Below are positions 5,343-56,022 of a stretch of 64,000 bases of DNA, piece after piece; positions within the stretch are counted from its first letter, which is position 1; every line of letters begins with the position of its first letter. The position numbers and the translations under genes were made by a program. The stretch is from Bacilli bacterium (GTDB lineage: Bacteria > Bacillota_I > Bacilli_A > RF39 > UBA660): contig JAQVKM010000002.1 of NCBI GenBank assembly GCA_028694645.1, forward strand, positions 1 through 64,000. The letters run 5' to 3'. The notes beneath the pieces are model-generated. The model was given only the letters and a program-made list of their open reading frames with translations. It was not told the DNA's origin and searched no databases.

Positions 5343-6144
5343 TATCGTCTTCCTCCTCATCATCTATTAATATAGATTTCTTTGGTCGCAATTCTTCTAG
5401 CAAGGTCATCTTAACTTCATCTAATGTTAAATTATAGCTAAGTTCTCCATTCATTGCAATTGAAAGTCTACCTGTTTCTTCTGAAACTACTAGTGCGATA
5501 CAATCTCCAGTTTCAGATATTCCTAATGCTGCTCTATGACGAGTTCCAAGCCTTTTACTTATTTTTAAATTATCACTTGTTGGAAAAACTGCTCCAGCAC
5601 TACTTATTTTATCCCCTTGAATTATTACTCCACCATCATGTAGTGGGTTGTTTGGGAAAAATATAGAAATAAGTAGATCTGCTGATATATCAGCATATAT
5701 TTTTTTAGAACGAGTAATATAATCTGTTAAACTATTGTCTCGTTCAATTATAATCAAAGCGCCAATTCTTTCTTTTTTTAAAACTTCCATAGCTCCAACT
5801 ATTTCATAAACAACTTTTTCTCTTTCATCAACTGTAAGAATTTTATGTCTACCTAACAACTGACTTCTACCTAGATATTCCAACACATTTCTAATTTCTG
5901 GTTGAAATATTACAATTAAAGCTAAAGGCCCCCATGTAATTACATAATCAAGTAAATAACCAACTGTAACCAAATCAAATAAATCACTTGCTATCTTTAA
6001 AGCAAGTAATATAAGTATCCCTTTAAAAATTAAAATCATTTTTACATTTTTTCTTAAATTTTTCAAAATATAATAAAGTACTAGCCAAACTAGTAATACA
6101 TCTATTAACTTAGTAAATAGATTTACAATGCTATCAAATGTCAT
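5317..6144 (-). CDS. cdaA: Diadenylate cyclase CdaA (DisA_N domain)
   Basis: This is a membrane diadenylate cyclase that makes c-di-AMP from two ATP. Three N-terminal transmembrane helices (about residues 1-80) precede the DAC domain. The catalytic DGA-type motif appears as HDGGVII and SSAGAVFP (about 165-185), and the RHR motif as GTRHRAALG (about 200). Length (about 275) matches CdaA. The track begins at 6156, but ATGGAGGTAAAT there contains the ribosome site, so ATG at 6144 (MTFDSI) is preferred. It is coupled to cdaR. c-di-AMP controls potassium, osmotic and wall homeostasis in Bacilli. Confidence 0.95.
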   Translation of the reverse strand: MTFDSIVNLFTKLIDVLLVWLVLYYILKNLRKNVKMILIFKGILILLALKIASDLFDLVTVGYLLDYVITWGPLALIVIFQPEIRNVLEYLGRSQLLGRHKILTVDEREKVVYEIVGAMEVLKKERIGALIIIERDNSLTDYITRSKKIYADISADLLISIFFPNNPLHDGGVIIQGDKISSAGAVFPTSDNLKISKRLGTRHRAALGISETGDCIALVVSEETGRLSIAMNGELSYNLTLDEVKMTLLEELRPKKSILIDDEEEDDSEKVIENN

Positions 6145-6234
6145 ATTTACCTCCATCTATCTGTCTAACAAATTATATCATAGTTAATAAATATTTTAAA
6201 TAGTATTTACCAAAAACTATTCATAAAATAAAAA

Positions 6235-6260
6235 AAATACTTTATTATTTCAAAGTATTT
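6235..6260 (-). terminator. Terminator of spo0A
   Basis: AAATACTTT-loop-AAAGTATTT with a following T-run on the minus strand overlaps the spo0A stop. Confidence 0.7.
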
Positions 6261-7029
6261 ATATTCCTATTTTATTACCTTCTAATTTCAATTTATCAGC
6301 AATTGTAACAATAAATTCCGAATTAGTTGGCTTAGCTTTATCTATATCAACACTATGACCAAAAATTTCTTCCATGAGATTCCAATCCCCTCTATTCCAG
6401 CTTACTTCTATTGCATGACGAATAGCTCGTTCTACTCTTGATACAGTTGTATCAAACTTTAAAGCTAGTTCTGGATAAAGTTCTTTTGTTATTCCACCAA
6501 TAACATCTGGTCTTTCATATATAACTCCAATGGCTTCTCTTATATATTGATATCCCTTTATATGTGATGGAATTCCAAGTTCATGTAAAACTTTTGTTAT
6601 AGATATCTGTAAATTATTATAATAAAAATCTATATTTTTTCCTATTTTTTCTTCTCTTCTACATGCCTCAAGTATTCTTTTTTCCAAATCATCTAATTCA
6701 AAAGGTTTTAAGATAAAATAATTTGTTCCATAATCCGAAACTTGTCTAATTACATCACTAGCATTATAGCTAGTTGCAACAACAACTTTTTTAATTATGT
6801 TTTTTTTCTTCATTTCTTCTAATACATACAACCCATCTTTTTTAGGCATTATCAAATCCAAAATAATTAAATCTATTTCATCTTTTTTCTCTTCAATTAT
6901 TTTCATTGCTTCTAAGCCATCAGATGCTTCTAAATCAATACTTATTTCACTACTACTACTAAAATACTCCTTAACCATATCAATCAAGTTGGTATTATCA
7001 TCTACCATTAGTACTCTTATTTTTTTCAT
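6259..7029 (-). CDS. spo0A: Sporulation master regulator Spo0A
   Basis: This 256-residue response regulator has an N-terminal receiver domain (VDDN near residue 10, phosphoacceptor in LIILDLIMPKKDG near 57, KPFELDDL near 107). The Spo0A-specific C-terminal DNA-binding domain includes HIKGYQYIREAI, the recognition-helix region TVSRVERAIRHAIEVSW, and the C-terminal NSEFIVTIADKL. Spo0A phosphorylated through the phosphorelay, or directly by kinases, commits Bacilli and Clostridia to sporulation. No kinase or Spo0F/Spo0B gene is in this window. It is monocistronic with its own terminator. A TATAAT-like element lies about 45 bases upstream of the ATG, but no confident sigma-H promoter was recognised. 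Confidence 0.97.
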   Translation of the reverse strand: MKKIRVLMVDDNTNLIDMVKEYFSSSSEISIDLEASDGLEAMKIIEEKKDEIDLIILDLIMPKKDGLYVLEEMKKKNIIKKVVVATSYNASDVIRQVSDYGTNYFILKPFELDDLEKRILEACRREEKIGKNIDFYYNNLQISITKVLHELGIPSHIKGYQYIREAIGVIYERPDVIGGITKELYPELALKFDTTVSRVERAIRHAIEVSWNRGDWNLMEEIFGHSVDIDKAKPTNSEFIVTIADKLKLEGNKIGI

Positions 7030-7141
7030 TTTCTCTTCCTCTCTAGTAGTACTTCCTTAGCATGTATATATTATACAATATTATGAAATCATATACTAGA
7101 GTTTTTTTTATCTATTTTTGTTTTTATTTGTTAAATATTGT

Positions 7142-7170
7142 AAAAAAAAGAAATTACTTATGCAATTTCT
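7142..7170 (-). terminator. Terminator of the pgk-tpiA operon
   Basis: AGAAATT-loop-AATTTCT overlaps the tpiA stop and is followed on the minus strand by eight Ts. Confidence 0.75.
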
Positions 7171-7880
7171 TCTATTATATTAATAAATTCTTCTTCTATT
7201 GTTGAATTATCACCTACCATTATTCCAGATAATTCAGAAATTTCTTTTATTTTTTTTATATTGTTTTTATCTATGCTTCCACCATATAGTACTTTGATAT
7301 TATTGAAATTGAAATTATTTTTTACTATTTCTTTTATATATAGTATAGCTTCTTTTATGTCTTTAATTTCTGGTATTATTTTTGTCCCTATTGCCCATAC
7401 AGGTTCATATACTACATATATATTATCAAAATTTTCAACGTTTCTTAAAGCTATAGTTAACTGTTTTTTCAAAATTCTTGTTGTTTTTAACATGTTTTTT
7501 TCTTCGTTTGTTTCACCAATACACAATATAACTTTTAAATCATATTTTAAACATTCTAATATTTTTTTGTTTATATCACTATCTGTTTCATTAAAATATA
7601 TTCGTCTATCACTATGACCTATGATTATATATTCAATTCCCATAGAAGCTGCTTGTTTAGGTGAAACTTCTCCCGTATAAGCTCCTTCGCTTCTAAAAAA
7701 AACATTTTGTAATCCAACTTTATATTTTTGCTTTAAAAAATATGGAACATAAATACTTGTAGGACAAATCACAACATTTTGATTATCAATTTTTTTATTA
7801 ATTGTTTTTAAATATTTACTCATATCAGAAGTAATCATCTTCATTTTTAAATTACCAATAATTAAAAATTCTTTTTTCAT
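7158..7880 (-). CDS. tpiA: Triosephosphate isomerase, divergent
   Basis: The enzyme interconverts dihydroxyacetone phosphate and glyceraldehyde 3-phosphate. At 240 residues it is slightly short of the usual about 250. The catalytic Lys (GNLKM, usual GNWKM), His (GHSDRR) and Glu (YEPVWAIGT) are present, as is YGGS. Three normally near-invariant positions differ: Trp after Asn-11 is Leu, the Glu of GHSERR is Asp, and the C-terminal phosphate loop VGGASL reads VGDNST. It is the last gene of a unit with pgk, a flippase-like protein and a glycosyltransferase (3-base gap to the latter). Isomerase identity is secure by overall alignment, but reduced or altered activity is possible. Confidence 0.9.
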   Translation of the reverse strand: MKKEFLIIGNLKMKMITSDMSKYLKTINKKIDNQNVVICPTSIYVPYFLKQKYKVGLQNVFFRSEGAYTGEVSPKQAASMGIEYIIIGHSDRRIYFNETDSDINKKILECLKYDLKVILCIGETNEEKNMLKTTRILKKQLTIALRNVENFDNIYVVYEPVWAIGTKIIPEIKDIKEAILYIKEIVKNNFNFNNIKVLYGGSIDKNNIKKIKEISELSGIMVGDNSTIEEEFINIIEEIA

Positions 7881-7883
7881 AAC

Positions 7884-9104
7884 TCACCCACTTATTATTC
7901 TTTTAATTCTTCTTACAATATTATCTTTTTTATATTTATCACCTATTGCTGATTTATAAACATCCAAGATTTGTTCTGCATAATATTTCAAAGAATGTGA
8001 TTCAGATGTTATACGAGCTTGATTAGACATCGATTTTAGCTGTTCTTTATTATTTATTAAACTCTCAATACATTTTTTATATTCTCTTTTAGTTCTAAAT
8101 AGTTTTCCATTTAAACCATCAATTACAACATTAGTGAAACTTTCATCATTCATACAAACAACAGGTAGTGATGCTGCCATAGCCTCTATTACCGTAAGGC
8201 CCTGTGTTTCAGTTGATGATGCGGTTGCAAAAACATCAGCTAAAGCATAATATTCAGGTATTTTTTCCCATGGAACAGCATTCGTTAAAATAACATTTTC
8301 TTTTATATTATACTTTTCAATCATTTTATTATAATGATCATAATCCGGTCCGCTTCCAACTACCATAAGTTTTATATTGGGATATTTTTTCACAAGGGTA
8401 TGATGAGATTCTATTAATAATTCAATGTTTTTTTCTTTAGCTAATCTTCCAACAAATAAAATAACAAAATCTTGTTTTTTTATTTTCCATTTTTCTCTTA
8501 ACTTCATTAACAATTCTTTATTGATTTTTTCTTTATAAAATCTATTTATGTCTATTCCAGTTGGAACAATATGAACATTTTTATCTACCTTATATTTTTC
8601 TTTAAATAAATTATATGTCTTTTTGCTTGGAACTATCAGTTCTGAAGCTGTTTTATCACAATAAAATTTTGTTAAATATTCAACTATCTTTTTGCTTGAT
8701 TTATCAAAATGACCTCTTGTTATATAATGTACATAATCCTCATACATTGTATGATATGTATGTACTAAAGGAATATCTAATTGATGTGCAATTATTCTTG
8801 CAAATGTTCCTATACCAAATTCAGTATGCGAATGAATAACATCCAAATCCCATTTTTTAATTTTATTTATAACTCTAACCGGATAAATCCCTGTCAAACG
8901 ATAATCATATATTCCAATTGGAATACCAGGTATTCTAATGACATGATTATCATTTTCATATTTATAAGTCATATTGTCTGGATTTACAGTAACTATAAAA
9001 ACCTGATGGCCTTTTTGTTTTAGGGCCTTTTCCAACATTGATATACTTGTTGAAACTCCATTAATAAATGGAGGATATGTATCTGTAAAAATTCCAATTC
9101 TCAT
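7884..9104 (-). CDS. GT4 glycosyltransferase, probable glycolipid synthase
   Basis: This 406-residue GT-B fold glycosyltransferase has an N-terminal acceptor domain starting FTDTYPPFINGVSTS and a C-terminal nucleotide-sugar domain with VGRLAKEKN (about 220) and the EX7E motif in TETQGLTVIEAMA (about 295). It resembles the 1,2-diacylglycerol 3-glucosyltransferases of Acholeplasma and lactobacilli, which build membrane glucolipids and glycolipid anchors for lipoteichoic acid. Its neighbour is a flippase-like integral membrane protein, a pairing often seen for glycolipid synthesis. The start is one base after the flippase gene stop. The sugar donor and acceptor are inferred. Confidence 0.85.
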   Translation of the reverse strand: MRIGIFTDTYPPFINGVSTSISMLEKALKQKGHQVFIVTVNPDNMTYKYENDNHVIRIPGIPIGIYDYRLTGIYPVRVINKIKKWDLDVIHSHTEFGIGTFARIIAHQLDIPLVHTYHTMYEDYVHYITRGHFDKSSKKIVEYLTKFYCDKTASELIVPSKKTYNLFKEKYKVDKNVHIVPTGIDINRFYKEKINKELLMKLREKWKIKKQDFVILFVGRLAKEKNIELLIESHHTLVKKYPNIKLMVVGSGPDYDHYNKMIEKYNIKENVILTNAVPWEKIPEYYALADVFATASSTETQGLTVIEAMAASLPVVCMNDESFTNVVIDGLNGKLFRTKREYKKCIESLINNKEQLKSMSNQARITSESHSLKYYAEQILDVYKSAIGDKYKKDNIVRRIKRIISG

Positions 9105-9105
9105 A

Positions 9106-10107
9106 CTAGTCCTTCTTTCTGAAACTTAATACTGTCATTCCTATAATCATGCTAAGATAATATGTTAAAAATCTCCAAACCAACATAATTGCATTAAGTG
9201 ACCCACCTTTTATAAAATTACCATAAAAAGCTATAAAGCCATATTCAATACCACCTGTTCCTCCGGGTATTGGTACAAAAGCGCCTATAATCATAATATA
9301 TGCTGAAACGACTATCGATTCAATTGCATTAACATTATTGATGTTAGCTGCTAATATTACAAATAATGGTGTTATATAATAAAATATTAAACCTAATAAT
9401 TGAACTAAAAATAATAATATAAATTTTCTTTTATTTTGTAATAACAATTTAGCACCTTTATCAAATTCTATTAAATATTTATGCATACGAATATCAGATT
9501 CATTATGTTTTTTCATTATTTTTATTTTTTGTAAAAGTCCTACTAAAAATTTAATTATATATTTTTTTAATGCTTTAGTGTATGTTAATATAAATAATCC
9601 TACAATTACTAAAAAATTAACTAAGAAGCCCACAATTACTAATTTTTTTAATACTTCATTGTCAGCAAATAACCCTGTAAAGTGATTATATGCAATTGCA
9701 AATATACCTAATGCAACTAAAGCTAATTGATAAAGAATAAAGTTTTGAATAGATACATTTGCTGAATCCATTCCACTTAATTTATCTTTATTTAAACGAT
9801 ATATTTCATATGGTTGTCCACCTGTTGCAAAAGGAGTTATTGCATGAAAAAAAGTAGTTTCAATAGCCATTCTAAATGAAGATTTCAATTTATAATTTTT
9901 ATTAAATGTTTTAGCAATTATCCATGTTCCAACACTTTTGCAAAATAAAAATAAGAGATAAAAAATAAAAGCTAAAATTAAATATAAAACATTCATATTT
10001 AATATATTATTAATTATTGTGAAGCAATCATCTTTAAGTGAGAAATACAAAACTAAACCTGTTATTATTATTAGAATCAAATAATTTATAATATCTTTAG
10101 TTTTCAT
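9106..10107 (-). CDS. Flippase-like integral membrane protein (LPG synthase TM family, UPF0104)
   Basis: This 333-residue polytopic protein has about eight hydrophobic helices and belongs to the lysylphosphatidylglycerol synthase transmembrane / YbhN family. The characteristic PIPGGTGGIEYGF motif is near residue 285 and ATGGQPYE near 98. There is no aminoacyltransferase (MprF C-terminal) domain. Related proteins are thought to move lipids across the membrane. Its ATG overlaps the last codons of pgk by 11 bases and its stop is next to the glycosyltransferase start, so all three are translationally coupled. A role in translocating the glycolipid made by the neighbour is inference. Confidence 0.85.
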   Translation of the reverse strand: MKTKDIINYLILIIITGLVLYFSLKDDCFTIINNILNMNVLYLILAFIFYLLFLFCKSVGTWIIAKTFNKNYKLKSSFRMAIETTFFHAITPFATGGQPYEIYRLNKDKLSGMDSANVSIQNFILYQLALVALGIFAIAYNHFTGLFADNEVLKKLVIVGFLVNFLVIVGLFILTYTKALKKYIIKFLVGLLQKIKIMKKHNESDIRMHKYLIEFDKGAKLLLQNKRKFILLFLVQLLGLIFYYITPLFVILAANINNVNAIESIVVSAYIMIIGAFVPIPGGTGGIEYGFIAFYGNFIKGGSLNAIMLVWRFLTYYLSMIIGMTVLSFRKKD

Positions 10108-11287
10108 TTTCTTCTATTACCTCTATGCCTGGTAGTTTTTTTCCTTCTAATAATTCCAATGATGCTCCTCCTCCAGTTGATATGTGATCAAAACAATCTT
10201 TATATCCTAAATTTATGACTGCTGATGCAGTATCTCCCCCACCTATTATTTTTACTGCAGAAATATTTTTAAGTATTTCACATAATCCTCTTGTTCCTTT
10301 TGAAAAACTATCTATTTCAAAAATTCCAACAGGACCATTCCATATTACTGTTTTACTTTGTTCCAAATATGTTTTAAATAGTTTTAAAGTGTTATAGCCA
10401 ATATCAATTCCTATTTCATTTTCTTTTATTTCATTAATAAAACATTGTCTTGTTGCTGCACTATCTTCTATTTTTTCAACATTAACCGTATCAATAGGCA
10501 ATATTATTTTATCGGCATAATTTTCTAATACATATTTACAAAAATCAATATTTTCTTCATCAACTAAAGATTTTCCAATATTTATTTGACTTGCTTTTAA
10601 AAATGTATATGCCATACCACCACCTATTAAAATGTAGTCAGCTTTATTTACTAAATTTTTTATAACACCAATTTTATCACTAACTTTAGAACCGCCTAAT
10701 ATTACTACAAACGGTCTTTTTGGATTATTTATTATTGGTTGTAGATATTTTAATTCTTTTTCAATTAAAAAGCCTATTCCACTTGGAAGATATGTAGCTA
10801 TGCCAACGTTTGATGCATGAGCCCTATGACTTGTACCAAAAGCGTCATTGATATATATATCACCTAAACTTGCCCAATATTTTCCTAATCTTAAATCATT
10901 TGAACTTTCTTTTTGATCAATCAAATCTTCATATCTTGTATTTTGCATTAATAAAACATCACCACATTTTAAATCATTAATTGCCTTTTCAAGTTCAATT
11001 CCTCTTGTTGCATTAATAAAAATTATTTCTTTATTTAGTAATTTAGATAATCTTTCCGAAACTATTTGTAAATCATTTTTTATTTCATCCTCTTTAGTTT
11101 TTATTCTCCCTAGATGAGACATTAATATTACTTTTGCATTATTATTAATAGCATAATTAATCGTATCTAAGCTTTCTTTTATACGTGTATCATCTGTTAT
11201 CATTTGATTCTTAATTGGGACATTAAAATCAACTCTTATTATTACTTTTTTATTATTTAAGTCAAAATCTCTTATCGTCTTCTTCAT
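10097..11287 (-). CDS. pgk: Phosphoglycerate kinase
   Basis: This 396-residue enzyme transfers phosphate from 1,3-bisphosphoglycerate to ADP in glycolysis. The sequence shows KVIIRVDFNVP near the N-terminus, the substrate-binding SHLGR, FGTSHRAHAS, the GGSKVSDKIG nucleotide-binding loop (about 200), IWNGPVGIFE (about 315) and a C-terminal GGGDTASAV and STGGGASLELLEG. Length is normal. The gene starts only 8 bases after a pilin-like gene and is separated from gap by that gene and a terminator, so its transcription appears to start upstream of the pilin-like gene. Confidence 0.97.
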   Translation of the reverse strand: MKKTIRDFDLNNKKVIIRVDFNVPIKNQMITDDTRIKESLDTINYAINNNAKVILMSHLGRIKTKEDEIKNDLQIVSERLSKLLNKEIIFINATRGIELEKAINDLKCGDVLLMQNTRYEDLIDQKESSNDLRLGKYWASLGDIYINDAFGTSHRAHASNVGIATYLPSGIGFLIEKELKYLQPIINNPKRPFVVILGGSKVSDKIGVIKNLVNKADYILIGGGMAYTFLKASQINIGKSLVDEENIDFCKYVLENYADKIILPIDTVNVEKIEDSAATRQCFINEIKENEIGIDIGYNTLKLFKTYLEQSKTVIWNGPVGIFEIDSFSKGTRGLCEILKNISAVKIIGGGDTASAVINLGYKDCFDHISTGGGASLELLEGKKLPGIEVIEENEN

Positions 11288-11295
11288 TTAATCAC

Positions 11296-12147
11296 CTATT
11301 TATATTTTGTTAATATTATTACTGGTCTAATTCCATATAAATTAGAAACACTATTTTCACCAAAATATCCATTACTACCTACTCTAATAGCTGTAGTAGA
11401 TACTGTTCCCGCTGTTGATGTCCAATATGATGTTGAATAAATCCATGGATATGATGATGTTGTACATGTATTTGTACTTGTAGAACAGCCTAGTGCAACA
11501 AGATCTGATGAAGTTGCTAATTTTAGATTAGCGGAATCAACATAAATCCATTTACTTGTTGCCAAGCTCATTGCAGCTAAAACTCCATCGGCACTACATG
11601 TATTACTGGTTCCTGAAACACACCATGCAACATCGCTTCCGATATTTTCATTTAATATTATTTTTACAGTTTCTAAATTTGTTCCACTACTTTCCATGAC
11701 AATCCATTCTCTAACAACGCCATCCCCTGGATCATAAGTTATGATATCTCCAACTTCATAAGGGTGATAAACAGTTGTTTCAATTAATTCATAATCATAT
11801 GTTTTTTTAGAATTTGTGGTAACAATTATTGTGTAATTTGCTTCTTGAGACAATTTTTTACCAGTGTTTGGGTCAACTATTGTACTACTTAAAAAATCAG
11901 ATGCCAACAAATCTCCTAAATTTATATAAGCTTTTCCACCTTGATTTTTAAGTTCATAAAAATCAGCATGATTAACTCCTATATATGCCTCTGTTGCCAA
12001 AAAAATATCTTGTTTAAAACTATCATATTGATCATGTTTAGCTTTTTTTAACATACTAGTTACTGTTGGAACAGCTACCAACAATATTATTGCAGTCAAA
12101 GAAAAAACACCCAACAATTCTACTAAAGTAAACCCTCTTTTTTTCAT
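11296..12147 (-). CDS. Pilin-like surface protein with C-terminal lectin-like (DUF6273-type?) domain
   Basis: ATG at 12147 follows AGGTGATAGA and gives MKKRGFTLVELLG, a classical type IV prepilin cleavage/methylation motif with Phe and Glu+5, then a hydrophobic helix. About 283 residues. The body after residue about 140 (YEVGDIITYD, EWIVMESS, CSTSTNTC, SYWTST, NLYGIRPVIIL) matches the domain seen in the phosphoglycerate mutase extension (YGVRPVFNL, KYWWLSNT) and in 47229-48329. The family assignment to DUF6273 is uncertain. The longer ORF start at 12192 lacks a good ribosome site. It is the first gene of the pgk-flippase-glycosyltransferase-tpiA unit. No pilus assembly genes are in the window. 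Confidence 0.82.
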   Translation of the reverse strand: MKKRGFTLVELLGVFSLTAIILLVAVPTVTSMLKKAKHDQYDSFKQDIFLATEAYIGVNHADFYELKNQGGKAYINLGDLLASDFLSSTIVDPNTGKKLSQEANYTIIVTTNSKKTYDYELIETTVYHPYEVGDIITYDPGDGVVREWIVMESSGTNLETVKIILNENIGSDVAWCVSGTSNTCSADGVLAAMSLATSKWIYVDSANLKLATSSDLVALGCSTSTNTCTTSSYPWIYSTSYWTSTAGTVSTTAIRVGSNGYFGENSVSNLYGIRPVIILTKYK

Positions 12148-12217
12148 TCTATCACCTATTCTTATATATATCCATTTTATAACTTTTTTCAAATATTTAC
12201 AAGTAAAACCATAAAAT

Positions 12218-12242
12218 AAAACTGCTTATAATAAGCAGTTAT
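12218..12242 (-). terminator. Terminator between gap and the pilin-pgk operon
   Basis: AACTGCTTA/TAAGCAGTT hairpin with TTTTATTTTAT on the minus strand directly after the gap stop separates gap from the downstream unit. Confidence 0.75.
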
Positions 12243-12247
12243 CTATT

Positions 12248-13255
12248 TTATAAGAATTTTGCCAAATATTTGGCTGTTCTAACCATTTGATTTGAGTAGC
12301 CCATTTCATTATCATACCAAGCTACCACCTTAACTAATTGTTTGTTATCCACTTCTAATACTTCAGTAAGTAATCCATCAACTACTCCTCCATGCGTTGA
12401 TCCAATAATATCACTTGATACAATAGGATCTTCTGTATAGCCTAAAGTTTCATTACTCAAATTTTTAAACAAATTATTAATTTCTTCAATATTTGTATTT
12501 TTATTTAATTCTAAAGTTAAATCTACAACTGATCCTGTTGTTGTTGGAACTCTCAAAGCACTTCCACTTAATTTTTTGTTTAATTCAGGAATAACTAATC
12601 CTATAGCTGTGGCTGCTCCTGTAGATGATGGTACAATATTAGCTCCAGCTGCTCTACCACGACGTGATTTAGCTCCTTTTTTATGAGATATATCAAGCAA
12701 TGATTGATCATTTGTATAAGCATGAACCGTTGTCATATATCCTTTAATTATCCCAAATTCATCATTTAAAACTTTGCAAAGAGGGGCTAAACAATTTGTT
12801 GTACAACTAGCTGCACTTATTATTTGTTCGGTTCCATCTAATATCTCATGATTAACATTATATACAATTGTTTTTAATTCACCTTTAGCAGGTGCTGAAA
12901 TTATTACTTTTTTAGCTCCTGCTTCTATATGAGCATAAGCTGTTTCTTTGGTAGTAAAACGTCCTGTACATTCAAAAACTTCATCAATATTTAACTCTTT
13001 CCAAGGTAAATTTTTAGGTTCTGTCTGTGCAAAAATTTTAACTCTTCTATTTTTAATTATCAATTCATCATTTTCATAACTTATTTCATCTGTTTTATAA
13101 TTTCTATGAGATGTATCATATTTTAACAAATATGCTAATTGTTCTGCATCAGTTAAATCGTTTATAGCTACAACTTCAAAATCAGGATTTTCTTCCATAA
13201 TTCTAAATACTAATCTGCCAATTCTTCCAAATCCATTTATTGCTACTCTTATCAT
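12248..13255 (-). CDS. gap: Glyceraldehyde-3-phosphate dehydrogenase
   Basis: This 335-residue enzyme oxidises glyceraldehyde 3-phosphate with NAD and phosphate. The Rossmann motif INGFGRIGR is at the N-terminus, the catalytic Cys is in SAASCTTNCLAP (about 150), and the phosphate-binding SSTGAATAIG and C-terminal WYDNEMGYSNQM are intact. It belongs to the same strand as pgk and tpiA but is insulated from them by a terminator, so it can be expressed separately. Ribosome site AAAAGGAG precedes the ATG. Confidence 0.97.
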   Translation of the reverse strand: MIRVAINGFGRIGRLVFRIMEENPDFEVVAINDLTDAEQLAYLLKYDTSHRNYKTDEISYENDELIIKNRRVKIFAQTEPKNLPWKELNIDEVFECTGRFTTKETAYAHIEAGAKKVIISAPAKGELKTIVYNVNHEILDGTEQIISAASCTTNCLAPLCKVLNDEFGIIKGYMTTVHAYTNDQSLLDISHKKGAKSRRGRAAGANIVPSSTGAATAIGLVIPELNKKLSGSALRVPTTTGSVVDLTLELNKNTNIEEINNLFKNLSNETLGYTEDPIVSSDIIGSTHGGVVDGLLTEVLEVDNKQLVKVVAWYDNEMGYSNQMVRTAKYLAKFL

Positions 13256-13310
13256 TTTAATCTCCTTTTATCTATAATTAATTTTAACATTAATTACAAT
13301 AATATTCTAA

Positions 13311-14978
13311 TTATTTTTTAAAAAAACAACTACTTCCAATAAATTCTCTTAAAACAGAATCTTTAGGAACATCATCACTAGGTATAGGTAAAAAATTTCT
13401 TAAAAAATTAATAAGTCTTAATGCTTCACTATACATAGGGTCATCTTCTTCAACAGAAAATAACAATGGTTCAGCATATGTTTTTAATATTCCAAGTTCA
13501 TATATTAATGCTGAGTTAATCATCATATCTGCATCATCTTGATAAGGGAAAATATATTTTTCTTCTCCTTCTCTTATTGATTTCCACATGTTTAATGTTT
13601 GACTTGCACTATAAGATCTATATTTATTATCTCTAACAATTCGTCTTAATTTTCTAGTATCACTTGTATGAATACGATTATGTTTATCAATATTAAGTTG
13701 TGTTAATGGACTAATATAAATTTTAAATTTGCTGTTTCTTTCAATCGAACTAGTTAAATCTTCATTAAGTGCATGTAATCCTTCAACTATAATCATATCA
13801 TCTTTTTCTAACATTAAGTTTTTACCTTTATATTCTCTTTTTCCTAAAACAAAATTATATTCTGGAAGTTCAATTCTTTCTCCGCTTAATAATTTAGTTA
13901 AATGTTTATTAAATAAAGTCACATCAACACAATTTAATGATTCTGTATCTAATTCTCCATTTTCTAAAATTGGTGTTTTATCTCTGTCTAAGAAATAATC
14001 GTCTATTGATATAGAATGCGTTTTAATTCCTTTACTTTGTAGATAAACTGCTAATTTTCTAGCTGTTGTTGTTTTACCAGATGATGAAGGTCCAGCTATT
14101 AAAATAAGTTTTACATTACCACTAGATTCCAATATTTTATCTGCAACTTTTGATAATTGATTATTGTAATAAGTTTCTGAAATTCTAATCAATTCACTAT
14201 AATTACCAACTGAAACAATAGCATTCAAATCTGCTGCTGTTTCAACCCCTATTTTTTTTCCATGTTTAACATATTCATAATATGTATCAAATAACATTTT
14301 ATGATGTACATAATCTAATGTACATTCTGGATTATATGTATCTGGATATGATAAAACAAACCCATTATCTTTTATATATGTTAATTTAAAATCATCTATT
14401 TGTGATGTAGAGTAAGCTAGTTCACCATAAAAATAATCATATATATCATCTATTCTATATAAGTTTATATATGTGTTACTAATATATTTTAAAACATTAA
14501 CTTTATCAAATTGTTTTTTCTTTTTAAAATATTTAATAGCATCAAATCGAGGTACACTTACTTTATTTATTATTAAATTTTCTTTTACTATATCTTTCAT
14601 CATTTTTTCTATTTCTTTTACAGTTGATTTATCTATATCAACATTTTCTATTTCACAATAAAATCCTTTGTCAATAGAATAATTAACTACTATTTCTGCC
14701 TCTTCGCTCAAAAGTCTTTTTACAGCAACAATAAGTAGAAATTGGGCAGTTCTACCATATATTCCATTTCCTAACCCACTACTTCTATCAAAAAATTCTA
14801 CCGAACAACTTCTATTTATAGCTTCATTTAATTCTGTAATATTATTATCTATTTTTCCAATTAAAATTGGATAATTATAATTTTTTTTAAAATCTTGACT
14901 TATTTCATATAAAGTTGTTCCTGCCTCATATTCTCTTGTTTCTAAATTTTTATAATTTATTTTAATTATTCTTGCCAT
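13311..14978 (-). CDS. TGS/ThrRS-like domain fused to uridine kinase-like P-loop kinase
   Basis: This 555-residue protein has an N-terminal TGS domain (about 1-60) and a threonyl-tRNA-synthetase second additional domain-like segment (about 60-200), followed by a phosphoribulokinase/uridine kinase domain with the P-loop AGPSSSGKTTTARKL (about 295) and the downstream IDDYFLDRDKTP and VEGLHALN motifs. This architecture is a known nucleoside kinase family in Firmicutes. The substrate is probably uridine or a related nucleoside. The synthetase-like part lacks the catalytic core, so it is not a tRNA ligase. It is divergent from clpP, with a shared AT-rich intergenic region. Confidence 0.88.
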   Translation of the reverse strand: MARIIKINYKNLETREYEAGTTLYEISQDFKKNYNYPILIGKIDNNITELNEAINRSCSVEFFDRSSGLGNGIYGRTAQFLLIVAVKRLLSEEAEIVVNYSIDKGFYCEIENVDIDKSTVKEIEKMMKDIVKENLIINKVSVPRFDAIKYFKKKKQFDKVNVLKYISNTYINLYRIDDIYDYFYGELAYSTSQIDDFKLTYIKDNGFVLSYPDTYNPECTLDYVHHKMLFDTYYEYVKHGKKIGVETAADLNAIVSVGNYSELIRISETYYNNQLSKVADKILESSGNVKLILIAGPSSSGKTTTARKLAVYLQSKGIKTHSISIDDYFLDRDKTPILENGELDTESLNCVDVTLFNKHLTKLLSGERIELPEYNFVLGKREYKGKNLMLEKDDMIIVEGLHALNEDLTSSIERNSKFKIYISPLTQLNIDKHNRIHTSDTRKLRRIVRDNKYRSYSASQTLNMWKSIREGEEKYIFPYQDDADMMINSALIYELGILKTYAEPLLFSVEEDDPMYSEALRLINFLRNFLPIPSDDVPKDSVLREFIGSSCFFKK

Positions 14979-15095
14979 GTTATATCCCCTCTATCTTTTA
15001 CTATTATCATTTTATCAAAAAATTATTAATTTGTCACATTATTTATTGAATATTTTGTTGTAAATATTATTATTATAATTATTAGAGGTGATCAA

Positions 15096-15665
15096 ATGAA
15101 TTTAGTTCCTACTATTATTGAAAAAAGTAGCAACGGTGAAAAAGCATATGATATATATTCTAGATTATTAAAAGATAGAATAATTATCATTAGTGATGAA
15201 ATAAATGATGTCAATTCTAATATAGTTGTTGCCGAACTTTTATATTTGGATTCAATTAACAATGATGATATTAGCATTTACATTAATTCTCCTGGGGGTT
15301 CAGTTACAGCTGGGATGGCAATTTATGATACCATGAATTTTGTTAAAAGTGACATTTCAACAATATGTGTTGGTTTAGCTGCAAGCATGGCTGCTTTTTT
15401 ACTATCCAGCGGAAAAAAAGGAAAAAGATATGCTCTACCAAATAGTGAAATCATGATTCATCAACCATTAGGTGGTGTTCAAGGTCAAGCAACAGAAATA
15501 AAAATTGCTGCAGAACGTATTTTGAAATTAAAAGATAAATTGAATCATATATTATCTTTTAATACTAACAAATCATTAAAAATTATTGAAAAAGATACTG
15601 AAAGGGATTATTTTTTATCTTCGAGTGAAGCATTAGAATATGGTTTAATTGATAAAATAATATAA
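15096..15665 (+). CDS. clpP: ATP-dependent Clp protease proteolytic subunit
   Basis: This 189-residue serine peptidase subunit forms the tetradecameric chamber that works with ClpX or ClpC. The catalytic triad is visible: Ser in GLAASMAAF (about 94), His in MIHQPLGG (about 119) and Asp in [10 protein letters not shown] (about 168). The oxyanion segment [11 protein letters not shown] is intact. The AGAGGTGATCAA ribosome site fits the ATG. It is monocistronic and convergent with yqeH, sharing a terminator. Confidence 0.96.
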
Positions 15666-15692
15666 AAAAACTTATCGTAATGATAAGCTTTT
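15664..15692. terminator. Bidirectional terminator between clpP and yqeH
   Basis: CTTATC-GTAAT-GATAAG flanked by A-run and T-run at the convergent gene ends. Confidence 0.75.
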
Positions 15693-16684
15693 TATATTAA
15701 ACTTTTTCTCGTATATACATCAACACCATCTAAAGTATATACACTTACAACACCATCTTTACTCACTTTTATAAATCCAAGTCCAGTAATTACAATATCA
15801 TTATCTTTTTTTACATGTACAACAGTTTTTCTTAAATTAGTTTTTCTATCTTTAAAAACTCTTTCTATTTTTAAATTATTAGACATATAAAAAGTTAAAT
15901 TGTTATCTTCTAAAACTAATTTAGCTAAAGAATCTATAAAAATATATTGTTTTTCTTTAACTTGATATGTTATTGGTTTTATTTCTCTTTTAGGCAATAT
16001 TTTTTTTAATGTTTTTCCATCTAATAAATTAACTATACTTCCTCTTTCTAAAATACCAGGTGTATCTATCAATGTTAATTCATCACTTAATTCTATTTTA
16101 ATCATATCAATTGTTGTTGATGGCAACATACTTGTTGTAATACTCATTTCAAGAGAAAAATAATTATAAATTATTTTATTAATTAATGTTGATTTACCTG
16201 TGTTGCTATATCCTACTACATAAACATTTTTACTTTTTTTATATTTATTTATTTTTTCCATTAATAAATCTAAATTATAATTTTTATTACTGCTTATTAC
16301 AATTGAATCTACAAATTCAATTCCCATTTCTAAATTGTAATTTAATAATTTTTCATCTTTTATTAGTAATGGAAGTAAATCTCTTTTAGTATATACAGCT
16401 AAAACATCATTATCTAAATATTTTGTTATTTCTTTTAAATCTTTATTGATATTTAATAAATCAATTACTAAAACAACTAAATCATTTGTTTCATTTATTT
16501 TTTTTAAAATATTAATAAATTCATCATTACTTTTTTGTATAACTTGATATTCATTATAATTAATAATTCTAAAGCATCTTTCACATATTTTAGATTTATC
16601 ATAATTTTCTAATTTCACATATCCTTCTAAATTAACATTTTCACTTTGAAATATAGCTCCACATCCACTACATTTTTTCTTCAT
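15692..16684 (-). CDS. yqeH: Circularly permuted ribosome-assembly GTPase YqeH
   Basis: This GTPase is needed for 30S subunit assembly in B. subtilis. An N-terminal zinc-finger (CSGCG and CERCF) precedes a circularly permuted G domain: G4 TKRD (about 105) comes before G1 GYSNTGKST (about 165) and G3 DTPGI (about 210). The track start at 16699 is a TTG inside the ribosome site; ATG at 16684 follows AAGGAAGATATT. That start overlaps the yqeG end by about 17 bases, as in the conserved yqeG-yqeH pair of Bacilli. Downstream partners of the B. subtilis operon (aroE, yqeI, nadD) are absent here. Confidence 0.94.
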   Translation of the reverse strand: MKKKCSGCGAIFQSENVNLEGYVKLENYDKSKICERCFRIINYNEYQVIQKSNDEFINILKKINETNDLVVLVIDLLNINKDLKEITKYLDNDVLAVYTKRDLLPLLIKDEKLLNYNLEMGIEFVDSIVISSNKNYNLDLLMEKINKYKKSKNVYVVGYSNTGKSTLINKIIYNYFSLEMSITTSMLPSTTIDMIKIELSDELTLIDTPGILERGSIVNLLDGKTLKKILPKREIKPITYQVKEKQYIFIDSLAKLVLEDNNLTFYMSNNLKIERVFKDRKTNLRKTVVHVKKDNDIVITGLGFIKVSKDGVVSVYTLDGVDVYTRKSLI

Positions 16685-35051: not shown

Positions 35052-35075
35052 AAAAAAAACTCTTAAAAGAGTTTA
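35052..35075 (-). terminator. Terminator of the gpmI-glycosidase unit
   Basis: AAACTCTTTTAAGAGTTT followed by a T-run on the minus strand, overlapping the glycosidase stop. Confidence 0.75.
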
Positions 35076-36083
35076 TTTTACTATCCAAGCTGTTGGAATC
35101 CATCTTTCTCCTGTCTTACTAACAGCACAAGGTTTATTAACGATATTCCCGTTTTCAACCATACTACTCGATGCTCCACCATCTAAATTGACAGCATTAT
35201 ATGCTTTATATCTAACTAGTATATCTGTAAGTTCAGACATTGTTACACCTAAACTATATCCTGGTTGTCTACCGTCTATAACAACAAATAAAACAATTCC
35301 ATCTTGTCTTTGCGCGATTGCTGTTCTAGATGAAGTTCCATAGCCACCATTTCCTTTAATAACAGATCTTTTCCCATTAACTATTAAAAATGGACCAAAA
35401 TCAACGGCATCTTCTATTCCCTGAGATAAAGCACTCGAAGAAGATTCTTTTGTAAGAAGAAGTTTATTATCAGATGTAAATCCAACAATTCCTCCTCCCC
35501 AACCAGTATCAGCTCCTTCAAATAATATTTTGGAATTTTGAATAACTGTTCCTGTAGGAGTTCCTCCATCTCCTTGACCATCAATATCAATGAATCCACC
35601 ACCATTGATAGCTAATAAAGCTTCATTTTCTTTAGCAATCGTTTGTAGAAACTGTCCTTGTTTTTTTAAATATTTTGTTGTTACTAATTCTATTCTTGAA
35701 GCATCATATATGGCCGCTACAAAACCTTTGTAACCTGTTCCACTAATTTCAAAAATTTTATAAACATCATCTTTATTATGTTTTAATATTTGTTTTTCAT
35801 ATTCTGATTCATACTTATCTGTTTCAATTATAGAATCAAAATTAATTTCATCCAAATTAGTATTTTCACCAACCTCTGAAATATAGTTTTCACTAAGAAC
35901 TTTATTAATTAAATCATCACTATAAAAAGTTCTAGCTAAATAATGATGGCTTTTTGTTGTCATTGCTGTTGTTATTAATAATGTTCTAAAATAAGAAATA
36001 GGACCATATGTAAAAAAGAGGAAGACACACATGAGAATATCTAAAATAAGAACAACAATTTTTATTCTACGATGCGTTTTCAT
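35073..36083 (-). CDS. Phosphodiester glycosidase family (NAGPA-like) membrane protein
   Basis: This 336-residue protein has an N-terminal transmembrane helix (about 8-30) and an extracellular NAGPA domain. The domain pattern AINGGGFIDIDGQG (about 160), DFGPFLIVNGK (about 228), SSRTAIAQRQDGIVLFVVIDGRQ (about 250) and VNLDGGASSSMVENG (about 300) is intact. Members hydrolyse phosphodiester-linked sugars or act on exopolysaccharide and wall polymers, and close Gram-positive relatives are annotated as exopolysaccharide-related. The gene starts 9 bases after the phosphoglycerate mutase fusion gene and is clearly in its operon. Confidence 0.88.
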   Translation of the reverse strand: MKTHRRIKIVVLILDILMCVFLFFTYGPISYFRTLLITTAMTTKSHHYLARTFYSDDLINKVLSENYISEVGENTNLDEINFDSIIETDKYESEYEKQILKHNKDDVYKIFEISGTGYKGFVAAIYDASRIELVTTKYLKKQGQFLQTIAKENEALLAINGGGFIDIDGQGDGGTPTGTVIQNSKILFEGADTGWGGGIVGFTSDNKLLLTKESSSSALSQGIEDAVDFGPFLIVNGKRSVIKGNGGYGTSSRTAIAQRQDGIVLFVVIDGRQPGYSLGVTMSELTDILVRYKAYNAVNLDGGASSSMVENGNIVNKPCAVSKTGERWIPTAWIVK

Positions 36084-36092
36084 TTATCTCTC

Positions 36093-38924
36093 CTATTCTA
36101 TTATAAATGGATTATCAATTGTTCCATCACCAGTTAAACTTACATTTTTATCAATATATATTGAAGGTCTGATTTTAAATTCGTCTGTTATTAATGATAA
36201 TCCTAAGCTGCCATCATTTTTAACATTATAAATCATATCTTCACTATTTGGAGTCATCAAATCATAATCAGCCAAATCATTTATAAATAAATCTATAACA
36301 TTAAGTAATCCTACTTTGGCTTCAATTGAACTTTTAAATATTTCTTGATAATCATAGTTGTTGTTCTCATTATAATTTCCTGTATACCAGGTACCATCAA
36401 CTATTATTTTTTGATTATTTAAACTATTATAAAAATTATTATTTAAATAATAAGCTAAACTAGTTTTATCATCTAAAGAAAAACTATTACTGTTATCTGA
36501 GTATTTTTTCGTAATATATTCATCGCTTACTTTTATATAATCTGAAGTAGCTAATTTGATTTTGTTATCATCAACTTTTATTACTTTCCATGTATAATCA
36601 CTATAAGAAACATAATCTCCTATTTTAATATTATTTTGATTATCAAACACATATGGATCTTCTTTTGTTCCTGTTCCACTAATATAATTTACACTAGCTT
36701 TAAGATTGAAAACAGGTCTCACTCCGTAACTATAATATGTGTTTTCACTAACTGAATTAGAATTAATTCCTCCTTCAGTAAAAACATACATTGGTTTATT
36801 TTCTTCAGTATTAGATAGCCACCAATATTTACTTATATTTAAATAACTTTCATTTCCTAGAGCTTCTTTATATTCTTGATATGTTAAAAGCCCTATTTTA
36901 TCTGTAACAGTATTGCCACATATACCAGTATTAATATCAATTTTATTTACACAAAATTTGCTGGCATAAATATAATCGTCAGGATTATTCAAAACATTAT
37001 AAAATATCCCTGTATTCTCTAATTCATTATCATTTAAATAATTTCTTATATATGAAGTTTCATAATTTCCAGTTCCCCAAACAATTGAAGATATTACATC
37101 ATCAGTTATTAATTTTATTGTTTTATTACTATTAATTTTAACAATTCTAAATAATATTCCTGAATAATAGATATAATTATTCTCAACATTTCCTTTAAAT
37201 ATATATTCATTTCCATCCTGATAAAGGCCATCACCAGAGGTTACTATTTCTTTTTTTAATATTTTGGATACTAAACTAGTATCCGTTATTTCTTCTGAAA
37301 TAATTGGATTTTCTTCACGATAATATTTTAAAAATCTAATTGTGTATATTGAAAATAAAGTAATCAAAAAAATTAAAGAACAAATAATAAATACTTTTTC
37401 ACTTTTAGATTTTTTTGTTTCTTTTTCTATTAATGATTCTCCTGTCATTTCTTCTGGCTTATCTAAATTCATTATTTCTAACATAGTAGGAGCAATATCA
37501 GATAATTTGCCATCTTTTAATTTACATTTATAATTTGTGATAATAAAAGGAACTTTACTTATTGAATGAGTCGTGATGGGTTTATCATTTTCATCTAACA
37601 TAAAATCACTATTACCATGATCTGCTGTTATAATAAGAACACCATTTTTTTCCTTTGTTTTCTTGTATAATTTACCTAAACAAACATCAACTACTTCTAG
37701 CGCTTTAATAGTTGCTTCCATATTACCAGTATGACCAACCATATCTCCATTTGCATAATTTAAAATAATAACATCATATATATTTTTATCCATTTCTTTT
37801 AATAATGTTTCTGTTATTTCATTTGCACTCATTTCTGGTTGTAAGTCATAAGTAGCAACTTTAGGTGAAGGTATTAAAATTTCATTTTTATTTTTTAATA
37901 CCACTTCTTTTCCACCATCAAAGAAATATGTCACATGAGCATATTTTTCTGTTTCAGCTATTCTTAGTTGATGCAAATTAAATTTTTCAATATAAGCTCC
38001 AAATGTATTTTCTAAATTTTGATGTTCAAATGCATTTATACATTTTACTTCTTCAGAAACAGGAAACATTGTAGCTAATTTAATATTATCCAATTTGATT
38101 GTTTCAAATGATGAAAATTTGTCATCAGTTATTGCTTTAAATATTTCTCTTAAACGATCAGGACGATAATTAAAAACAATAATTCCGTCATTATTTTCTA
38201 TTAAACCATTTTCTTCAACAATAAAAGGTTCTATAAATTCATCATATACTTCATTGTTATAACTATCTGTTATAATTTTTTCATAGTTTTTTTCTATTTT
38301 AGTTGTTCCAAGAACCATTGCATTATATGCTTTTTGTACTCGATCCCATCTATTATCTCTATCCATAGCGTAATATCTTCCTGAAATAGATGCAATTTTG
38401 CCTATACTTGTTTCTTTTATTTTTGCTTCTAGGAGTTTTAAATAAGTTAATGCATTATCTCTTTTTGTATCTCTACCATCTAAAAACAAATGAAGATATA
38501 AATTTTGAATATTATTTTCTTTACACATATCAATTAAACTTATCAAATGATCAATATGAGAATGAACCCCGCCATCACTAAGTAATCCACATATATGTAA
38601 CTTTGAATTATTTTTTTTACTATGATTAATAACTCTTAATATATTTTCATTACTAAAAAAAGTTTTATTTATAATACTATTATTAATTATTTCTAGCGGC
38701 TGATATACTATTCTACCAGCTCCAATATTAGCATGTCCAACTTCACTATTACCCATTTGATTTTCAGGCAATCCAACTTGCTTACCACTTGCTTCTAATA
38801 ATGAATGTGAATATTTTTTATATAAATAATTGAAATTCGGCATATTTGCTTTTTTAACAGCATTACCATGAATTTCTTTTCTAATTCCTACTCCATCTAA
38901 TATACAAAGTACTACTGGTTTCAT
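36093..38924 (-). CDS. gpmI: Phosphoglycerate mutase (GpmI) fused to membrane anchor and tandem extracellular domains
   Basis: Residues 1-500 form a complete cofactor-independent phosphoglycerate mutase: CILDGVGI, the phospho-Ser motif MGNSEVGHANIGAG (about 60), LSDGGVHSH, DGRDT, TADHGNSD and the usual C-terminal end LSDIAPTMLEIM...EMTGESLI. A Lys-rich linker (500-510), a transmembrane helix (about 511-530) and two related domains follow (about 563-760 and 765-943). Each extracellular domain shows a RIVKINSNKTIKLI-type N-strand, KYWWLSNT, SYGVRPVFNL and GTGTKEDPY/GDGTIDNPF-type ends. Normal GpmI is about 510 residues. Lys-rich residues before the helix predict the enzyme inside and the domains outside. 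It is cotranscribed with the phosphodiester glycosidase. Confidence 0.88.
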   Translation of the reverse strand: MKPVVLCILDGVGIRKEIHGNAVKKANMPNFNYLYKKYSHSLLEASGKQVGLPENQMGNSEVGHANIGAGRIVYQPLEIINNSIINKTFFSNENILRVINHSKKNNSKLHICGLLSDGGVHSHIDHLISLIDMCKENNIQNLYLHLFLDGRDTKRDNALTYLKLLEAKIKETSIGKIASISGRYYAMDRDNRWDRVQKAYNAMVLGTTKIEKNYEKIITDSYNNEVYDEFIEPFIVEENGLIENNDGIIVFNYRPDRLREIFKAITDDKFSSFETIKLDNIKLATMFPVSEEVKCINAFEHQNLENTFGAYIEKFNLHQLRIAETEKYAHVTYFFDGGKEVVLKNKNEILIPSPKVATYDLQPEMSANEITETLLKEMDKNIYDVIILNYANGDMVGHTGNMEATIKALEVVDVCLGKLYKKTKEKNGVLIITADHGNSDFMLDENDKPITTHSISKVPFIITNYKCKLKDGKLSDIAPTMLEIMNLDKPEEMTGESLIEKETKKSKSEKVFIICSLIFLITLFSIYTIRFLKYYREENPIISEEITDTSLVSKILKKEIVTSGDGLYQDGNEYIFKGNVENNYIYYSGILFRIVKINSNKTIKLITDDVISSIVWGTGNYETSYIRNYLNDNELENTGIFYNVLNNPDDYIYASKFCVNKIDINTGICGNTVTDKIGLLTYQEYKEALGNESYLNISKYWWLSNTEENKPMYVFTEGGINSNSVSENTYYSYGVRPVFNLKASVNYISGTGTKEDPYVFDNQNNIKIGDYVSYSDYTWKVIKVDDNKIKLATSDYIKVSDEYITKKYSDNSNSFSLDDKTSLAYYLNNNFYNSLNNQKIIVDGTWYTGNYNENNNYDYQEIFKSSIEAKVGLLNVIDLFINDLADYDLMTPNSEDMIYNVKNDGSLGLSLITDEFKIRPSIYIDKNVSLTGDGTIDNPFIIE

Positions 38925-47136: not shown

Positions 47137-47228
47137 TTAATCACCTATTAATATTATTCAAATGTCATTATTTTATTGTATATTTATATTTTTTTTGATA
47201 TAATTTATTTAGTTTGGAGGGTTATTTA

Positions 47229-48329
47229 ATGGACTTTAAAAAAATAGGTAAAAATGTATATGTTTATTTTGGAGTAGGCTTTGGAGTTATGCTTTTCTTT
47301 ATTATTATAATATTAATACTTAGTGTTATGTTTGGAGGAAAGGTTTCAATTGAAGTTGCCAAAAAGAAAATACAAAACGCAGCTATAGTATATTATAAAA
47401 ACAATCAAGATGAATTACCAATTGTTGGAGAAAGTACTTTCATAACAATGGATAAATTAGTAGAAAAAAAATTAATTAAAAGTTTTGATAATTTATTAAA
47501 AAATCAAAATACATCTTGTGAGGCAAAAGTAACTGTTGAAAACAATAATGGATTTTATTTATATTCTACTGACTTAAATTGCGAAGATGATTATCAAACA
47601 ACATATTTGTATGAAAAAGTAAAATCAGATAATTTAATAACTACTGATAGTGATGGATTATACGAAATTAATAATTCTTTAGTATTCAGGGGAGAAGATC
47701 TTAATAATTATGTTTCTTTTGCTAATAAAATTTGGAGAATTATTAAAATAAACACTGATAACTCTATCAGATTAATTGAAGTAACTAGTGAGGAAAGTTT
47801 TGTATGGGATGATCGTTATAATAATGAGGTTGAGTCTAATACTGGAATTAATGATTATCGCGTTAGCAGAATAAAAGATACTCTTGAAACTTTATACAAT
47901 GATGAAAATAAATTTACAGAAGCTGACAAAGCATTCATTGTTGCGCAAGATATTTGTTTAGGTAAACAAGCAGAAAACAGTTCTATTCTTGATGGTTCAG
48001 TTGAATGTTCTGATGTTTTAGAAAATCAATATATATCAATGTTAGAAGTTTATGAATATGCTTTAGCTAGTATTGATAATAACTGTAACAGTTTAGATGA
48101 TAGAGAGTGTTCTAATTATAATTACATATCAGCATTTGATAAATCATTTTGGACAATCACTGCAAGTTCTGAAATAAGTGATAGAGCTTTTAAAATATCA
48201 ACTTATCCTGACTTAATAAGAACTGCTAATGCAACAGCTATTAATTTAGTAATTCATATTTCAAGTAATGCCATATATTTAGATGGTGATGGATCTTTTG
48301 ATAAACCATATACAATAAAAAATGACTAA
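47229..48329 (+). CDS. Bitopic surface protein with lectin-like domain, related to GpmI extension
   Basis: From ATG at 47229 (after GGAGGGTTATTTA) it is about 366 residues. A single transmembrane helix (about 15-38) precedes a short pilin-like coiled region (IEVAKKKIQNAAIVYYKNN) and the domain family described in this window: GLYEINNSLVFRGEDLNNY, IWRIIKINTDNSIRLIE, a Trp-rich SFWTIT segment and the terminal GDGSFDKPYTI. The match to the first extension domain of the phosphoglycerate mutase (GLYQDGNEYIFKGNVENNY, RIVKINSNKTIKLI) is strong. It is convergent with a thioester adhesin gene and shares a terminator. Confidence 0.8.
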   Translation: MDFKKIGKNVYVYFGVGFGVMLFFIIIILILSVMFGGKVSIEVAKKKIQNAAIVYYKNNQDELPIVGESTFITMDKLVEKKLIKSFDNLLKNQNTSCEAKVTVENNNGFYLYSTDLNCEDDYQTTYLYEKVKSDNLITTDSDGLYEINNSLVFRGEDLNNYVSFANKIWRIIKINTDNSIRLIEVTSEESFVWDDRYNNEVESNTGINDYRVSRIKDTLETLYNDENKFTEADKAFIVAQDICLGKQAENSSILDGSVECSDVLENQYISMLEVYEYALASIDNNCNSLDDRECSNYNYISAFDKSFWTITASSEISDRAFKISTYPDLIRTANATAINLVIHISSNAIYLDGDGSFDKPYTIKND

Positions 48330-55930: not shown

Positions 55931-56022
55931 AAACATCCCTCTATTCTTTTCAAATTATAACAAAATAGTTATCTTTTATCAATATAAAAATAAATATGTA
56001 ATAATTATTAATAAAAAAATAA

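Follow-up and report, generated by a model that had tools for sequence, protein, structure and literature searches.

A gene for a type IV prepilin lies directly before the phosphoglycerate kinase gene (pgk) in dozens of genera of an uncultured Bacilli/Mycoplasmatota family (gut bacteria, with Candidatus Faecisoma among the members), and this linkage is conserved far above chance. The window, the whole stretch of 64,000 nucleotides that was analyzed here, comes from a genome of this family and carries such a pair. As judged from the sequences compared, the conserved element is a pilin core of approximately 125 residues, the head domain being interchangeable. Based on gene order, orthology, purifying selection, the exchange of heads, and the presence of machinery genes, the best explanation was that an orthologous type IV pilin gene is the first gene of a pgk-(flippase-GT4)-tpiA unit and that this position couples its expression to glycolysis; we regard the prospects of this reading as evenly balanced.

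The gene map proposed in an earlier, sequence-only reading of this DNA held: gap, a hairpin terminator, the prepilin gene, pgk, and the genes for a flippase, a glycosyltransferase, and TpiA follow one another on the minus strand. The features of this locus were as follows.

12248..13255, minus strand: gap, type I glyceraldehyde-3-phosphate dehydrogenase (TIGR01534, 429.7 bits, over the cut-off)
12220..12240, minus strand: intrinsic-terminator-like hairpin in the interval between gap and the pilin gene (9-bp stem and T-rich tail, AACTGCTTATTATAAGCAGTT and TTATTTTATG)
12174..12202, minus strand: weak promoter-like site 3' of the terminator (TTGTAA-17-TAAAAT, 9/12)
11296..12147, minus strand: prepilin (the pgk-linked pilin) of 283 aa (PF07963 over the cut-off; confident pilin-like core model)
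11776..12147, minus strand: conserved pilin core, a long helix and small sheet common to other genera (profile A1, 166 bits)
11308..11769, minus strand: C-terminal head, distantly DUF6273-like/C-type-lectin-like (A2 profile matches at 11308-11544 and 11542-11769; PF19789 below the cut-off)
10097..11287, minus strand: pgk, phosphoglycerate kinase of 396 aa (PF00162, 474 bits)
9106..10107, minus strand: flippase-like membrane protein (PF03706, 133.5 bits; TIGR00374)
7884..9104, minus strand: GT4 glycosyltransferase (nearest NCBIfam model NF049988, alpha-monoglucosyldiacylglycerol synthase, 294.9 bits, below the cut-off of 400)
7158..7880, minus strand: tpiA, triosephosphate isomerase (PF00121, 223.4 bits)
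6259..7029, minus strand: spo0A, by synteny the neighbor after tpiA kept in most relatives (PF08769, 134.9 bits)

The start codon of pgk was located at 11287 and the pilin stop codon, which overlapped the pgk ribosome site (TAGGTGAT), 8 bp earlier; the tiny gaps and overlaps noted previously were also borne out, with the flippase gene overlapping pgk by 11 bp and the next two gaps being 1 and 3 bp. A uridine-kinase-like gene preceded gap. With PRK13962, the PGK part scored 510.9 bits, under the cut-off of that bifunctional model. Promoter-like sites of the quality listed above were no more frequent than in shuffled sequence, and since no Rfam family was found in 5000-16000, no known riboswitch heads the operon.

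The first gene after the gap terminator was a prepilin gene, as previously proposed: the ORF starts with MKKRGFTLVELLGV and scored 26.1 bits with Pfam N_methyl (PF07963; cut-off, 21.2). The AlphaFold2 model comprised a helix (residues 8-58) and strands at 72-76, 105-111, and 117-123, with a mean pLDDT of 87-97 per ten-residue block from residues 11 to 120, and solved type IV pilins matched the core by sequence over the N-terminal helix (best E = 8e-8). Scores with the NCBIfam equivalog models of ComGC, ComGD, and ComGE were approximately 19-22 bits, below the cut-offs of 49-75. The window's genome encodes a PilB-like ATPase (PF00437), a PilC-like platform protein (PF00482), and one prepilin peptidase (PF01478). 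According to profile searches, from which the genome-wide counts derive, this genome of 1.22 Mb contained 61 prepilin-type genes over the Pfam cut-off, an unusually large number; because prepilins are so abundant, one beside pgk is unsurprising here when taken alone, whereas its conservation across genera is surprising. A further prepilin in the window (54989-55936) had near-identical core copies elsewhere in the genome (L281, L287, and L290; 98% to L290).

The neighborhoods of pgk were examined in 35 family genomes, each from a different genus. A homologous prepilin gene was located directly before pgk in six genomes besides that of the window (G003, G006, G016, G030, G031, and G036); in G002, this position was taken by a form without the prepilin motif, and in G001 by a copy that a contig break divides. 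The best matches of the core profile in 386 family genomes were mostly adjacent to pgk. In a check in which the pilin played no part in the choice of loci, 80 named loci being fetched by pgk similarity alone, this pilin core was directly upstream of pgk in 24 of the 47 loci whose pgk was at least 58% identical to that of the window, versus 3 of 487 genes at other nearby positions (Fisher p = 1.5e-25), a test that is partly circular because the A1 core profile was built from pgk-adjacent copies, and, since the loci share ancestry, p-values given here overstate independence. At a loose threshold of 25 bits, there were 24 matches before pgk and 7 at other positions; this threshold and the tree described below lessen the circularity, but do not remove it. 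The expectation for a prepilin before pgk, from the prepilin density of the window's own genome, was about 5%. Among 67 adjacent cases, the median spacing between pilin and pgk was 8 bp (quartiles, -4 and 15), and 19 overlapped pgk. Where gap was immediately upstream (32 loci), a terminator-like hairpin separated it from the pilin gene in 16 cases, and in many loci the pilin gene and pgk stayed together with gap not directly upstream. The pilin before pgk was not found in about half of the near relatives, nor in any more distant family member examined, and in some genera (g29, g11, and g3) the ortholog was located away from pgk, showing that adjacency is not essential.

A possible, though on balance unlikely, account of this distribution is neutral: a pilin gene may have entered once and been retained because disruption of a compact operon ahead of pgk does harm, with no regulatory meaning. 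The gap-pgk-tpiA-spo0A-gpmI cluster is conserved with or without the pilin, unrelated genes precede pgk in other family members, and a single entry would be unsurprising given the number of prepilins in the window's genome; on the other hand, the pilin gene and pgk are still paired in many loci from which gap has separated, the very short spacing persists despite the exchange of heads, and selection has acted on the core itself.

This selection was apparent from substitution ratios: in 12 close pairs of relatives, the dN/dS value of the core was 0.05-0.21, which shows purifying selection. Of the 73 pgk-adjacent copies in a tree of 117 cores, 72 fell into one group (SH-aLRT, 93), and the pilin core of the window clustered with pgk-adjacent copies from other genera rather than with paralogs of its own genome. 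Adjacency to pgk required 12 changes on this tree versus 35 in shuffles, none of 500 of which was as low. The prepilin motif was kept in 64 of 67 adjacent orthologs. In G002, L220, and L221, the adjacent copy had no prepilin motif; its frame was still open (dN/dS of 0.15 in one close pair), with a 4-bp overlap with pgk in G002 and a distance of 4 bp in L220 and L221. Three pgk-adjacent orthologs without the motif (L220:5661-5996, L221:106-441, and L038:4044-4409) had a transmembrane helix and a conserved outer core, and a motif-bearing relative was present elsewhere in genus-mates of G002 (L122 and L125).

Open, conserved frames of this type, together with the overlap of 19 of 67 copies with pgk and of the window's pilin stop codon with the pgk ribosome site, are what would be expected if translation of the pilin frame were coupled to that of pgk and set the PGK output, with the ORF retained even after loss of the pilin function. 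We consider this quite unlikely: purifying selection on the amino acid sequence is not needed by pure coupling, many relatives lack the ORF, nearly all adjacent copies retain the pilin motif, and those without it may simply be membrane-anchored versions. Of these two rivals, neutral retention was stronger than a cis effect of the pilin frame on the translation of pgk.

In contrast to the core, the heads varied. No head was present in 43 of 67 pgk-adjacent pilins, and the remainder carried LamG (PF13385), one or two DUF6273-like domains (two in genera such as g2, g67, and g141), or GLUG. The window's pilin head scored 16.6 bits with DUF6273 (PF19789), below the Pfam gathering cut-off of 23.5, and its nearest relative among the sequences examined was a prepilin beside a PilB-like ATPase gene (E = 3e-8). 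The sequence-only reading had matched this C-terminal domain with the extension of GpmI. The two share a superfamily, since a broader profile includes both, but they are not a close family: BLASTP of the head with GpmI domain 1 gave 33% over 45 aa (E = 0.015 in a three-sequence database), a pairwise similarity that is not significant, and phmmer gave no match between the head and the GpmI tail. Models of the head and GpmI tail, which were of low confidence and did not resolve the head fold, had no significant Foldseek match, and a PDB sequence search with the head profile returned chance matches only.

The same reading had connected this extracellular domain family with glycolytic enzymes, a linkage to be compared with chance. 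A linkage far above chance was found in many genera for the pair of prepilin and pgk; it did not extend to the domain, given the 43 headless pilins and the LamG or GLUG heads of others. The genomes with DUF6273 heads at pgk were those with the most domains of this type (14-21 matches versus 0-10, p = 0.001, in a comparison that left out the window's own genome with its 8 matches and distant single head), which indicates that the domain at this locus reflects the pilin-head pool of the genome, not a link to glycolysis. A specific link between the DUF6273 head itself and glycolytic genes is therefore largely refuted and extremely improbable, even though 2 of at least 11 proteins with a domain of this superfamily in the window's genome are in or beside glycolytic genes and the pgk-linked pilin carries two such domains in several genera; most pgk-linked pilins are headless or otherwise headed, and both loci in the window descend from one cluster, as described below.

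The second of these loci, and one further protein with a DUF6273-like domain, were as follows.

36093..38924, minus strand: gpmI fused to a membrane/surface tail, 943 aa (TIGR01307, 663.8 bits, residues 2-499)
37338..37394, minus strand: transmembrane segment of the GpmI tail, residues about 511-529 (VFIICSLIFLITLFSIYTI from the translation; helix in a low-confidence model)
36099..37223, minus strand: two DUF6273-like domains of the GpmI tail (PF19789, 27.1 bits, over the cut-off; own profile, 176.8 and 122.1 bits)
35073..36083, minus strand: NAGPA-type phosphodiester glycosidase (PF09992, 136.6 bits; order as in L190, L220, and L221)
47214..48329, plus strand: membrane protein with a DUF6273-like domain (own profile, 109.1 bits; A2, 177.5 bits)

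The gene order in relatives was gap-pilin-pgk-(flippase-GT4)-tpiA-spo0A-gpmI-ext-NAGPA (L224 and L225; partly L190, L220, L221, and L226), in which ext is a separate gene, located after gpmI or spo0A and encoding a transmembrane segment and two DUF6273-like domains, and is followed by the NAGPA-type gene. In the window's genome, gpmI was 25 kb from the pgk cluster and fused to ext, with the NAGPA-type gene still next. The two loci were previously taken to be independent; because both belong to one cluster in relatives, they are instead fragments of one ancestral cluster. From these gene orders, the GpmI tail results from the joining of gpmI to ext, the gene that follows it in the cluster, and G142, in which gpmI and ext were separate genes 7 bp apart, had the unfused arrangement. 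A fusion frame of 944-965 aa was present in each of the four genomes sampled from genus g158, and an assembly artefact was rejected because these four genomes of another genus share the fusion. The fusion in the window's genome and in this one other genus makes a predicted membrane-tethered mutase.

A surface- or membrane-associated glycolytic arrangement, as suggested in the sequence-only reading, would have the pilin and GpmI tail hold enzymes at the membrane. The joining of GpmI to a transmembrane segment and outer domains in five genomes is consistent with it, as is the separate transmembrane/DUF6273 protein after gpmI or spo0A in other relatives; however, only GpmI is tethered, in two genera, and its frame is approximately 500 aa in nearly all other listed genomes of the family. 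Both PGK and TpiA are of the ordinary soluble type, and the head domain lacks conservation. No part of a mature type IV pilin lies in the cytoplasm, and so it cannot hold cytosolic PGK, which makes a physical enzyme assembly highly improbable; nothing points to such an arrangement.

Other prepilins of the window's genome were associated with diversity-generating retroelements (DGRs). Three DGRs with prepilin targets (G000:C14:16800-22500, L298; C14:146500-153800, L299; and C8:10000-17000, L300) comprised a reverse transcriptase and an Avd-like protein together with VR/TR repeats at a spacing of about 300-340 bp, and 14 of 15 VR/TR mismatches were at template adenines in both L298 and L300. A 4446-bp stretch with a prepilin and DGR was present twice, identically, on contig C14 (L298:1-4446 and L299:14-4459), which reflects either a recent duplication or an assembly effect. 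Three prepilins (L275, L277, and L284) had similar bodies and a strongly divergent 3' block of ~110 bp in the DUF6273-like head, as in DGR targets; no template repeat was identified for them. The pgk-linked pilin as a DGR target was unsupported, its 3' end having no match to the repeats of the three DGR regions examined.

In the preferred reading, that of a pilin coupled to glycolysis by its position, the pilin would be processed by the prepilin peptidase of the genome and anchored in the membrane through its N-terminal helix, and the PilB/PilC machinery would probably incorporate it into a pilus. The short outer core would carry the exchangeable head: none, LamG, C-lectin-like DUF6273, or GLUG. 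We infer a joint transcript with pgk and a regulatory purpose for it; the place before pgk would tie pilin expression to glycolytic activity and growth, such that a surface organelle is made while sugar is burned, and the neighboring glycolipid genes would be coupled likewise. A broader version, in which the membrane pilin and tethered GpmI form a lineage-wide device that links attachment at the surface directly to glycolysis, either through sensing or through bringing enzymes to the membrane, and in which the pilin-pgk pair is the fixed module and the outer head the exchangeable part, is very unlikely.

The genes of surface appendages usually lie with those of their machinery and are regulated apart from central metabolism. 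That a pilin has stayed before pgk in dozens of genera, even as its head was exchanged, suggests expression of part of the surface together with glycolysis in these gut bacteria. The locus may also serve as a marked site for following how surface domains are swapped on a constant pilin core, and the GpmI fusion, as predicted from its sequence, offers a rare and directly testable case of a glycolytic enzyme that is naturally tethered to the membrane. The pilin-pgk linkage appears to be undescribed: no description of a pilin gene before pgk or of the mutase fusion was found in the open-access literature searched, absence from which is no proof. The parts are of known kinds, and the new element appears to be the fixed linkage with changing heads.

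Among known systems, tentaclins are surface proteins with DUF6273/C-type-lectin-like tip domains (PMC10743442, in which the B. ovatus tip pilin 4EPS is cited). The present proteins resemble them in having a DUF6273-type domain on surface proteins and in the action of DGRs on other prepilins of the genome; the pgk-linked pilin differs in its 3' end, which did not match the DGR repeats examined, and in its DUF6273 score below the Pfam cut-off. With type IVa major pilins and PilA-type and ComGC-type prepilins, it shares the prepilin leader, G-F-T-L-V-E motif, long N-terminal helix, and small sheet, the matches among solved pilins including Geobacter PilA-N and PilE1 over the N-terminal helix. Unlike PilA/ComGC-type prepilins, it is encoded before pgk rather than in a pil/com operon, has exchangeable C-terminal heads, and scored under the ComGC/D/E cut-offs. 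The Bacillus-type glycolytic operon has the order cggR-gapA-pgk-tpiA-pgm-eno. Relatives of the window's genome similarly keep gap, pgk, tpiA, and gpmI in that order, but the genes for the pilin, flippase, GT4, Spo0A, and surface ext/NAGPA proteins are interleaved, and a uridine-kinase-like gene, not cggR, is located before gap.
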